The notes under the pieces are model-generated. The model did not search any database. It was not told the DNA's origin and saw only the letters and a list, made by a program, of their open reading frames with translations. A stretch of 64,000 nt of DNA, taken from positions 2,201,766 through 2,265,765 of the forward strand of contig LT599017.1 of NCBI GenBank assembly GCA_900079765.1. Reading direction: 5' to 3'. Positions 9,786-62,019 of this stretch are shown piece after piece. Both the position numbers and the translations under genes were made by a program. This DNA comes from an uncultured Eubacteriales bacterium. GTDB taxonomy: Bacteria; Bacillota; Clostridia; Oscillospirales; Oscillospiraceae. The stretch's first letter is position 1. Every line of letters begins with the position of its first letter.

Positions 9786-10084
9786 GCAACAAAAAAAGCC
9801 GTTGCCCTAGAATTTCTTCTGGGACAAAGGCCAAACCTCTGCGGTACCACCCGGATTGACGCCGCTATACGGCGGCGCCCACTCACTTTTCCGTGCCCAA
9901 CAGCACGTGCTCCCCTGATAACGGGCAGAGTCCCCGTCTGGCTACTTGAAAAAATCTTTCGCCATACACCCTCGGAAATCCATTCACCCTGCCGCTTACC
10001 TGCCGCGATCCCACCACCCGCGGCTCTCTTTGAGGCGATTTGCAAGGCTACTCCTCTTCTTCATCGGTTTTACAATTTTTAGTT
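9786..10084 (-). ncRNA. T-box leader (tryptophan-type) of trpB2
   Basis: The leader between promoter and gene has T-box hallmarks on the minus strand. Near the 5' end are GAAGAAGAGGAGTAG and an AGAGAGC segment of stem I. A specifier region GAA-TGG-A (TGG = Trp, 9980-9982) follows. The conserved antiterminator bulge sequence GGGTGGTACCGC is at about 9841-9851. Last is a hairpin around GTCCCAGAA/TTCTAGGGC followed by seven T (about 9788-9833), acting as terminator. A second TGG lies a few bases downstream, so the exact specifier triplet is inferred, but both read Trp, which agrees with the downstream gene. Confidence 0.9.
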
Positions 10085-58097: not shown

Positions 58098-58134
58098 GTT
58101 GCAAAAGAGTTACAATGTGGTTACAAAGGTTACA
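58098..58134 (+). promoter_or_regulatory. Direct GTTACA repeats upstream of the CAP-domain gene
   Basis: GTTGCA 58098-58103, GTTACA 58109-58114, 58120-58125 and 58129-58134, with periods of 11, 11 and 9. They end 24 bases before the ATG. The same repeat unit and spacing occur upstream of the SleB-like gene (8109-8145). Confidence 0.5.
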
Positions 58135-58158
58135 AATTTTGAATGGAGGTCTCAAAAA

Positions 58159-59019
58159 ATGAAACGAAGAATTGTTGTTGTTATCTGTACGCTTGCCTTA
58201 ACCCTCGGCTTGGCTGTACCGGTATCCGCGGCGACGACGCCAGTTAGTTGTGTAGAAAGGACTGAAACGAATTCCCGCTATTTACGTTTTGATTCCGTTT
58301 CTCTCATCAATAGCCTAAGGACTGGTAAATCTAACAGCTGTTTTGATTTATGGCAAAGTCTGCTCACCTGGCTGAACAAGGACTGCAACGCGCAGCCTGA
58401 GACCCCAAACAAACCGGAAGTCCCAGTTGAACCGGAAACTCCAATCGAGCCGGAAATCCCGGCCGAGCCGGAAACCCCAGTCGAGCCGGAAACCCCAATC
58501 GAGCCGGAAACCCCGGTCGAGCCGGAAACCCCGGTCGAGCCGGAAACCCCGGTCGAGCCGGAAACCCCGGTCGAGCCGGAAACCCCGGTCGAAGTCACTC
58601 CCCCTGTTGAGACTCCCGACGAATCCACTGAGCAGGGCGATACTTTCAGCGCCTATGCCCAGCAAGTCTTGGTCTTAGTAAATGAACAGCGCGCCGCAAA
58701 CGGTCTTTCGCCCTTGACCCTCAGCAGCGGTTTATCCACCGTAGCTCAGGCTAAGGCGCAGGACATGAAGGATAACAAATATTTTAGCCACACCAGCCCT
58801 ACATATGGTTCGCCATTTGATATGATGAAAACCTATGGCATAACTTATAGAGCCGCCGGCGAAAATATCGCAATGGGCTATGCAACGCCCCAAGCCGTTG
58901 TAAATGGCTGGATGAATTCCTCCGGGCACCGGGCAAATATTCTCAATGCAAACTATACTCAGATGGGAATAGGCTACGTTGAGAGCGGAAATTACTGGTG
59001 CCAAATGTTTATTGGCTAA
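58159..59019 (+). CDS. Secreted CAP-domain (SCP/YkwD-like) protein
   Basis: 286 residues. Signal peptide ([19 protein letters not shown], cleaved near VSAATT), a spacer, ten P-E-x-P-x-E hexapeptides (residues ~86-145) that form a rigid stalk, then a CAP domain: [56 protein letters not shown]. The CAP His and Glu residues are all present. Such proteins act at the cell surface or in spore coats; activity unknown. GGAGG precedes the ATG at 58159. Shares an operator-like repeat with a wall hydrolase gene. Confidence 0.9.
58414..58593 (+). repeat. Tandem 18-base coding repeat
   Basis: Ten units of CCGGAAACCCCGGTCGAG or variants inside the CAP-domain gene. The last five are identical, so unit number may vary by slippage. 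Confidence 0.93.
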
Positions 59020-59230: not shown

Positions 59231-60985
59231 TTACCCTTCAAAATCAGGAATCTTACGTTTCCGCCGTGTGGGTCCTGACGAACGCGCCGCGTTGCATTTG
59301 GTCACAAGCTGCCCGGAAAATTGGGCAGCTTTCGAGGCCTTGCGCGGCCGGCGGGCCTCACTCCACGCCTGATCGGCAAGGCGGACTGTCCTAGTATTCT
59401 TGCCACAGATTTTGCAGTCTCGCATGGACGCTACCACACCGTCTACCCGGTTTTCGGGTATGCTAACCACCGAATAGTCAGGATAAATCTCAATTTTCCC
59501 GACCTCTTTGCCCGAAATACCTGAGCGCTCGGTAATTGCTCCTACCAAGTGTTTGGGTTCTACTCGGTTGGCCGAGCCGATATCTACTACCACGTCGGTA
59601 AATGAGACGAGAGAAGTCTTGACCGGACGCTGATCCGCCTCCCTGCGCACCTCACGGTTAAGGGGGACGATGATTTCCTCAGGCAACTCCTTGTCGGGGT
59701 AGTGGATACTCAACAGTGCGGCGGCAATGCGTTCGGGCGTATAACCGCGCTCAGTAAGCTGTGCAACCATGCGTTCATAGCCCGCTCCAGCTCCGCGTTC
59801 TATTGCTTCGACCACGGCCTCAACATTCCTCTCGTGCTCCCGCGCTTCGATCTCCTTCTGCGTAGGCAAGCTGTCTTGCCGTATCTCTGCCTTGACCGCT
59901 CGGGACAGCTCCCGCAAGGCGTTCATCTGCCGCTTGCCAGAGAAGAGTGTGATGGAGCTGCCTGATTTCCCCGCGCGCCCGGTACGGCCAATGCGGTGGA
60001 TATAGTATTCCGTATTCATAGGAATATCATAATTAATGACGTAGTCCAAATCGCTGACGTCAATGCCACGGGCCGCCACGTCGGTGGCGATGAGAATCGC
60101 CACGCGCCCACGCTTGAATTCGCTCATCACACGGGTACGCTGTACCTGTTTTAAGTCACCGTGGATACTCTCAGCGCTGAAGCCGTGGTTGTTCAAGTAC
60201 TCCCCCAGCTCATCGACCATGCGTTTCGTATTGCAAAAAACCAAGGCCCGGTTGGGTTTATGAAACCGCAGCAGCAGATTGAGCGCCTCCATCTTTTTGC
60301 TGACAGGTGCCTCTACGCAGCTCTGATCAATTTGCTCCAATGTCACCTGGCTCTTGTTGATTTCTATGGTCTGGGGATCTCGCTGAAAGGTCTTAGCGAG
60401 GCTCAGAATAGCGGGGGGCATTGTGGCGGAAAAGAGAACAGTCTGACGCTCTTCTGGCGTATCACGCAAAATCGTCTCAATGTCCTCCTTAAAGCCCATG
60501 TTGAGCATCTCGTCGGCCTCATCCAGAACGATTATCTTTAAATGCTGCAGCTTGATGGTACCGCGGCGCATATGGTCCATCACTCGGCCCGGAGTACCCA
60601 CAACGATGTTGGCCCGTCTGAGCTGGATAAACTGCCGCTCCATATTTGCGCCGCCATATACCTCCACCAGCCGAATGCCGGGCAGAAAACGGGCGAGCTT
60701 GCGGATCTCCTCCCCCGCCTGCTGGGCTAATTCCCGTGTGGGACAGAGAATCAGCACTTGAACCGTGGGTTTCTCAGCACTGGTATCAATGACCTCCAGC
60801 GCAGGAATGGCAAAGGCCGCTGTCTTGCCCGTCCCGGTCTGGGACCTAGCTATCACATCAGCTCCGCTGCATATGAGCGGGATCACCTGCTCCTGAATTG
60901 GGGTGGCGCGGTCGAACCCCATCTCCTTTACAGCCTTCTCGATTCGGGGATCAAGCTCCATTTGGGAAAATTGCACGTCTGACAT
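59231..60985 (-). CDS. DEAD-box RNA helicase (CshA/DeaD-like)
   Basis: ATP-dependent RNA helicase for ribosome assembly, RNA decay or cold growth. 584 residues. Motifs: Q motif (GFDRATPIQEQVIP), QTGTGKTAAF, PTRELAQQ, LDEADEMLNMG, FSATMPP, ATDVAARGIDV, HRIGRTGRAGKSG. A C-terminal DbpA-like RNA-binding fold (residues ~455-525: SFTDVVVDIGSANRVEPKHLVGAI) is followed by CKICGKN and a basic tail. The ATG at 60985 has GGAG five bases ahead. The leader carries a terminator that can also pair with the ribosome-binding site. Confidence 0.93.
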   Translation of the reverse strand: MSDVQFSQMELDPRIEKAVKEMGFDRATPIQEQVIPLICSGADVIARSQTGTGKTAAFAIPALEVIDTSAEKPTVQVLILCPTRELAQQAGEEIRKLARFLPGIRLVEVYGGANMERQFIQLRRANIVVGTPGRVMDHMRRGTIKLQHLKIIVLDEADEMLNMGFKEDIETILRDTPEERQTVLFSATMPPAILSLAKTFQRDPQTIEINKSQVTLEQIDQSCVEAPVSKKMEALNLLLRFHKPNRALVFCNTKRMVDELGEYLNNHGFSAESIHGDLKQVQRTRVMSEFKRGRVAILIATDVAARGIDVSDLDYVINYDIPMNTEYYIHRIGRTGRAGKSGSSITLFSGKRQMNALRELSRAVKAEIRQDSLPTQKEIEAREHERNVEAVVEAIERGAGAGYERMVAQLTERGYTPERIAAALLSIHYPDKELPEEIIVPLNREVRREADQRPVKTSLVSFTDVVVDIGSANRVEPKHLVGAITERSGISGKEVGKIEIYPDYSVVSIPENRVDGVVASMRDCKICGKNTRTVRLADQAWSEARRPRKASKAAQFSGQLVTKCNAARSSGPTRRKRKIPDFEG

Positions 60986-61074
60986 AGGTCTCCTCGTTTC
61001 CAATTAAAATTACAAAAGAAAAAACGAGGATCAGCTCCTCGTTTTACACTAAACCGATATACAGCTACATTATT
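60986..61074 (-). promoter_or_regulatory. Attenuator / RBS-switch leader of the DEAD-box helicase
   Basis: In the minus-strand RNA a perfect ten-base-pair hairpin, AAAACGAGGA-gctga-TCCTCGTTTT (61045-61021), is followed by a T-run, a terminator inside the leader. Twenty-odd bases later AAACGAGGAGACC contains the ribosome-binding site (60987-60999), a repeat of the hairpin's first arm. TCCTCGTTT can therefore pair with either copy: terminate, or hide the ribosome-binding site. Confidence 0.7.
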
Positions 61075-61080
61075 TTTTTA

Positions 61081-61109
61081 ATTTTAGCACAGCAATATTC
61101 TTTTGTCAA
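61081..61109 (-). promoter_or_regulatory. Sigma-A promoter of the DEAD-box helicase
   Basis: On the minus strand TTGACA, a 17-base spacer and TAAAAT. Transcription would start near 61074, giving a leader of about 90 bases. From 61110 to 61590 there is no gene I can support. Confidence 0.8.
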
Positions 61110-61641: not shown

Positions 61642-62019
61642 GTGGAATTTATGGAAGCTATAAATTGCTGTCAGCAATGTAAGTGTTGTCAGTGTGACCC
61701 ATGCCAACAAAGGCACGTTCACGAGGTTTTGGGCAGTGTAATGATTGCGGAGCGCGAGGAGGATCCACACAACCACCGATTTGCAACGGTAAGCTGTGAA
61801 GCAATCCCTTTATGGAATGGCGACCATGTGCATGAAATTCGATTCCGCACCGATTTCTACGAAAATCATTTTCATGAATTCGCAGGCAAAACCGGAGGCG
61901 CGATTGATGTAGGCGGAGGACGGCACGTCCACTTTATCGAATCGCAAACAAATTGCGAAGATGATCATTTCCATCTTTTTAGAGTAGCAACCTTAATTGA
62001 AGATCCAATCGGAGATTAA
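61642..62019 (+). CDS. YmaF family His-rich protein
   Basis: 125 residues. N-terminal Cys-rich segment (CCQQCKCCQCDPCQQ) then repeated His pairs: RHVHEV, DPHNHRF, DHVHEIRF, NHFHEF, RHVHFIES, DHFHLF. This spacing is typical of YmaF-like proteins and suggests metal binding or a spore coat role; function is not established. The frame opens with GTG at 61642 with GGGGG 11 bases upstream; ATG at 61651 is an alternative. A near-perfect palindrome lies just upstream. Confidence 0.85.
   Translation: MEFMEAINCCQQCKCCQCDPCQQRHVHEVLGSVMIAEREEDPHNHRFATVSCEAIPLWNGDHVHEIRFRTDFYENHFHEFAGKTGGAIDVGGGRHVHFIESQTNCEDDHFHLFRVATLIEDPIGD

Follow-up and report, generated by a model that had tools for sequence, protein, structure and literature searches.

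A conserved premature terminator in the leader of a clostridial DEAD-box RNA helicase gene probably acts as a transcription attenuator

Introduction

In Escherichia coli, the gene cspA, which encodes an RNA-remodelling protein, has a cold-responsive leader. The leader of the clostridial DEAD-box helicase gene described here differs from it in having neither an Rfam match nor a predicted temperature-dependent refolding. It resembles rimP-leader and other terminator-only attenuators, in which a short conserved terminator likewise occupies the interval between promoter and gene without a larger sensor domain (PMC2965389), although the stems differ (ACGRGG/CCYCGU in the helicase leader, GGGc/gCCC in rimP-leader), as do the genes. 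Among operons for RNA-binding proteins, 14% had predicted attenuators in the analysis of Naville and Gautheret (2010; PMC2965389), who proposed self-regulation; helicases are not mentioned in the text of that paper. In the vmlR leader of Bacillus subtilis (PMC9226507), a terminator and a hairpin sequestering the Shine-Dalgarno (SD) sequence are found in one leader, as is the case here. However, vmlR has an upstream ORF, an antiterminator and an anti-antiterminator, none of which was found in the helicase leader, and the SD pairing of the latter is not conserved. The product of crhR in Synechocystis, an RNA helicase that responds to cold, controls its own expression, partly via the stability of transcript and protein, and the excerpted text of that report describes no leader terminator (PMC3485376).

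Results

The window, i.e. the whole stretch of 64,000 nt that was analysed, comes from an uncultured Eubacteriales bacterium. The helicase encoded on its minus strand contains the Pfam domains DEAD, Helicase_C, DbpA RNA-binding and DeaD-dimerization and is similar to both CshA and DbpA, yet stays under the curated cut-offs of both. An earlier note on this DNA had correctly delimited the leader, from the deduced start site to the base before the ATG (Table 1), and had proposed a terminator hairpin within it. This hairpin is indeed present downstream of a good promoter, and homologues keep it with compensatory changes. It comprises 10 pairs and the 5-nt loop GCTGA (61045-61021) followed by a U-rich tail, which corresponds to the G+C-containing stem, short loop and U tract of an intrinsic terminator, and it lies, as a premature terminator does, between promoter and ribosome-binding site (RBS) on the same strand, with the start site deduced from the promoter. 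The RBS copy AAACGAGGAG equals the 5' arm over 10 nt, so that either can pair with the 3' arm. That these pairings exclude each other, as the note had also stated, is seen in the sequence and in folding for the window's genome. The match between 3' arm and RBS amounts to 9 Watson-Crick pairs, or 11 when G-U is included.

Table 1. Features of the helicase locus (window positions) and loci of the separate leader RNA at paralogous genes
Feature	Position	Strand	Remark
DEAD-box RNA helicase gene, C-terminal DbpA-type RNA-binding domain, 584 aa	59231..60985	-	ATG at 60985
Predicted promoter TTGACA-17-TAAAAT, TG before -10, 11/12 consensus matches	61081..61109	-	Similar promoter-like site at equivalent place in homologues
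Leader RNA, about 89 nt	60986..61074	-	Start site ~61074 deduced from promoter
Segment 1, TCGGTTT	61051..61057	-	TCG kept in nine closest leaders
Segment 2, terminator 5' arm AAAACGAGGA	61036..61045	-	Sequence and stem covariation
Segment 3, terminator 3' arm TCCTCGTTTT, complementary to RBS as well	61021..61030	-	Sequence
U-rich terminator tail TTCTTTTG	61013..61020	-	Sequence
Segment 4, RBS AAACGAGGAG	60990..60999	-	In homologues only its GAGG fixed
Paralogue leader RNA loci	L177-L204, e.g. L179:1501-1576 (+), L177:1501-1578 (-)
Further paralogue leader RNA loci	L007, L010, L011, L014, L015, L016

No Rfam family matches the helicase leader at the gathering score; the only matches in the window are a tRNA and a T-box leader (RF00230, 110 bits, 9817-10073, minus strand), both located elsewhere. 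Several other ideas about the leader were discarded. A leader peptide is not apparent by eye, as the window's leader lacks a start codon that would follow the 5' arm at SD spacing. Mimicry of 23S rRNA, an idea derived from the DbpA-type domain, yielded matches at merely chance level (7-12 nt), and a pairing of the start codon with the distant 5' end, predicted in a single-sequence fold, is by inspection not kept in relatives. A small ORF of 125 aa (61642-62019, plus strand) is divergent from the helicase gene and encodes a histidine-rich product with an N-terminal cysteine-rich stretch (NCCQQCKCCQCDPCQQRH). Another ORF (58099-59019, plus strand) contains a long repeat (11 protein letters, not shown), and its C-terminal part after the repeat is what we take to be a CAP/SCP-like sequence.

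Homologous genes were taken from whole genomes and GTDB contigs, and their leaders were oriented before comparison. Promoter, hairpin, U tract and RBS occur in one order in L111, L112, L114, L116, L115, L113, L003 and L117, and nine homologous leaders align over the promoter-proximal ATCG, the hairpin, the U tract and the RBS. RNAalifold found the terminator as the sole structure in these nine leaders. A covariance model built from them recovered the helicase leader of L128, a member of another family that was not part of the training set, with an E value of 3.8e-9. Its other matches in the family were weak, lie at gene ends or at unrelated genes and look like terminators of gene ends or chance matches; those in L152 and L155 resemble ordinary terminators with the same ACGAGG/CCTCGTTTT stem. 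Covariation was assessed in 11 distinct leaders with ungapped 9-mers of 5' arm, 3' arm and RBS. The terminator stem is paired in 96% of the cells, with two-sided changes at 3 pairs and 7 compensatory cells, and 0 of 500 shuffles equalled the real alignment in pairing, compensatory cells or covariation score. This test is somewhat favoured by the manual layout of the arms, which was made in view of the hairpin. Conservation at the same gene and compensatory changes, as expected of an attenuator, are thus both found. The promoter-like site, the terminator, their order and the conservation and covariation in orthologues can be read directly from the aligned leaders.

One finder was applied to orthologues, genome genes and paralogues alike. 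Among the DEAD-box orthologues of the taxonomic order, 21 of 28 have promoter, terminator and RBS one after the other, compared to 8 of 273 sampled genes of the window's genome, the helicase gene included (p about 4e-20 by Fisher's test), and to 1 of 20 DEAD-box paralogues (p about 1e-6). These formal p-values are inflated as the orthologues are related and their counts are not independent events. Despite this kinship, the contrast between orthologues and paralogues within the same family of genomes still appears strong. The terminator is not found in some orthologues (L002, L118 and L121). Because it is concentrated in one orthologue group, selection for control is suggested. The same concentration relative to paralogues and other genes speaks against the hairpin being a mere 5' stabiliser or a fixed, unregulated brake, a view that would agree with a terminator conserved without any conserved sensor and that we hold to be unlikely. 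Helicase homologues from other Oscillospirales and from Lachnospiraceae (L130-L137, L061, L067, L044 and L060) have leader terminators with different stems at similar positions, and these differing stems suggest repeated or fast-evolving attenuation of the helicase gene. The idea that the 5' arm mimics the SD sequence and serves as a conserved decoy was rejected, with L111, L127, L128 and L139 carrying CGGGG there.

The earlier note had gone further and proposed a three-copy switch: under the influence of the helicase or of cold, the 3' arm would pair either with the 5' arm, causing termination, or with the RBS, blocking translation. Each of the two pairings can physically form, and in isolation their energies nearly coincide: at 37 °C, we calculated -12.5 kcal/mol for segments 2 and 3 and -12.8 kcal/mol for segments 3 and 4. 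In the equilibrium ensemble of the whole leader, however, the terminator hairpin reaches a probability of 0.89-0.91 and the pairing of the 3' arm with the RBS merely 0.06-0.10 at any temperature from 10 to 45 °C; the hairpin, whose loop is shorter, also forms before the alternative pairing. The suggested cold-driven shift in balance is therefore not seen, and a cold switch or RNA thermometer was rejected on the basis of this equilibrium model, which cannot speak for protein-driven remodelling. Moreover, both states of the switch would be 'off'.

Comparison with relatives separates the two halves of the proposed switch: the terminator is conserved and covaries, whereas the pairing of arm and RBS is not conserved. 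Covariation of the latter, on which the note had staked its proposal beforehand, is absent in relatives: 81% of the cells are paired, no two-sided, compensatory change occurs, and none of the shuffles pairs less well. Permuting arms against RBSs gave a complementarity of 116 versus a mean of 114 in 16 leaders (p 0.32) and a p of 0.42 in 12 deduplicated leaders. The hand-made layout of the arms cannot explain this failure. In the g4 relatives (L003, L113, L115 and L117) as well as in L127 and L128, where the pairing is broken, the 3' arm now reads CCCC and mismatches the unchanged GAGG; the pair is lost where the 3' arm has C for U, and the A of the RBS stays. Still, the nearest relative L111 retains the match with one further G-U, and L129 has a separate 8-pair version of its own.

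The chance level of the match was estimated from random combinations of one of 227 terminator arms and one of 488 RBSs, all taken from 464 kb of the window's genome, the window included. At least 11 contiguous pairs with G-U occurred in 0.4% of the draws and 9 Watson-Crick pairs in 0.035%, a rarity that favours the switch; the runner-up among the 36 leader terminators in the 464 kb reaches 8 pairs. Scaling up the latter count gives ~285 leader-type hairpins per genome, for which about one chance match with G-U and about 0.1 with Watson-Crick pairs only are expected. Taken for one leader the match is unusual, but among the several hundred leaders of a genome it is less remarkable, and it is further weakened as evidence because it was picked by eye. 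The ACGAGG/CCTCGTTTT stem is common in terminators, which itself helps to explain how an arm comes to fit a GAGG Shine-Dalgarno sequence. Overall, the complementarity of arm and RBS most likely has no conserved role, and the three-copy switch, which we regard as very improbable, is probably a lineage-specific coincidence. An even slimmer chance is given to a double gate restricted to the small lineage formed by the window's genome and L111, in which, with the repeated AAACGAGGA, the helicase would open its own hairpin and the freed 3' arm would close the RBS. If true, the helicase would limit itself at the levels of transcription and translation.

Classical antitermination, in which segment 1 (UCGnUUU) would pair with AAACGA of the 5' arm and thereby prevent the terminator, could account for the UCG that is invariant in nine leaders, and a 6-pair segment-1 hairpin is possible in the sequence of L116. 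In the window's leader, however, this pairing is weak: its energy is -1.4 kcal/mol at 37 °C, and its probability in the ensemble does not exceed about 0.01. It is absent from L128, L129 and L139. Segment 1 is too invariant and the leaders are too few for covariation, and we consider antitermination of this kind quite improbable.

Paralogous DEAD-box genes in related genomes have a different leader, in which GAUUUGAGGUC...GACCUUGAAUC closes inner helices and which resembles a three-way junction (GAUUUGAGGUCGCGCC...GGCGUU...GGGGACCUUGAAUC). A model built from six examples and run on 370 genomes of the family detected this RNA in 28 of them, in all 28 directly upstream of a DEAD-box ORF (Table 1). 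Two-sided changes were found at 14 of 26 pairs (50 cells) and 0 of 500 shuffles were as good, with the alignment fitted to its model and covariation thus biased upward. At these loci no Rfam 15 family matches, and the RNA was neither found in the window's genome by the model search nor does it match the 23S rRNA of that genome. It is a candidate for an undescribed cis-regulatory RNA, and its novelty may exceed that of the helicase leader itself.

Discussion

We interpret the leader as a terminator-only transcription attenuator of the DEAD-box helicase gene and assign this reading a probability of roughly three in four. RNA polymerase would start near 61074, the terminator hairpin and its U tract would follow within about 60 nt, and most polymerases would stop at the U tract. 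In read-through RNAs the hairpin would remain closed and the RBS, about 20 nt downstream, would be free for ribosomes, so that the read-through fraction would set expression. Given the comparison of orthologous leaders, attenuation of helicase transcription appears well founded, and helicase output is probably throttled at the leader terminator. Termination in vivo and regulated read-through are what we infer from these sequences, 'regulated' in particular because no conserved antiterminator or ligand-binding domain was seen in the leader; a fixed low-output terminator would give the same picture as a regulated one. We tentatively suppose that the attenuator responds to an RNA-binding protein that contacts the hairpin or the U tract of the nascent RNA; the first candidates would be the helicase itself and a cold-shock protein. 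Mutants of B. subtilis in cold-shock proteins show altered terminator read-through (PMC8307031) and DEAD-box genes of the acetogen Acetobacterium bakii are reported to be cold-induced (PMC6239172), which are leads rather than evidence for the helicase leader.

A match between arm and RBS that looks striking in a single genome can turn out to carry no signal when relatives are included. Apart from a few models, little is known of how bacteria control the dosage of DEAD-box helicases. With a premature terminator conserved at one orthologue group across a clostridial order and lacking from paralogues, such dosage control becomes testable by simple 3'-end mapping.
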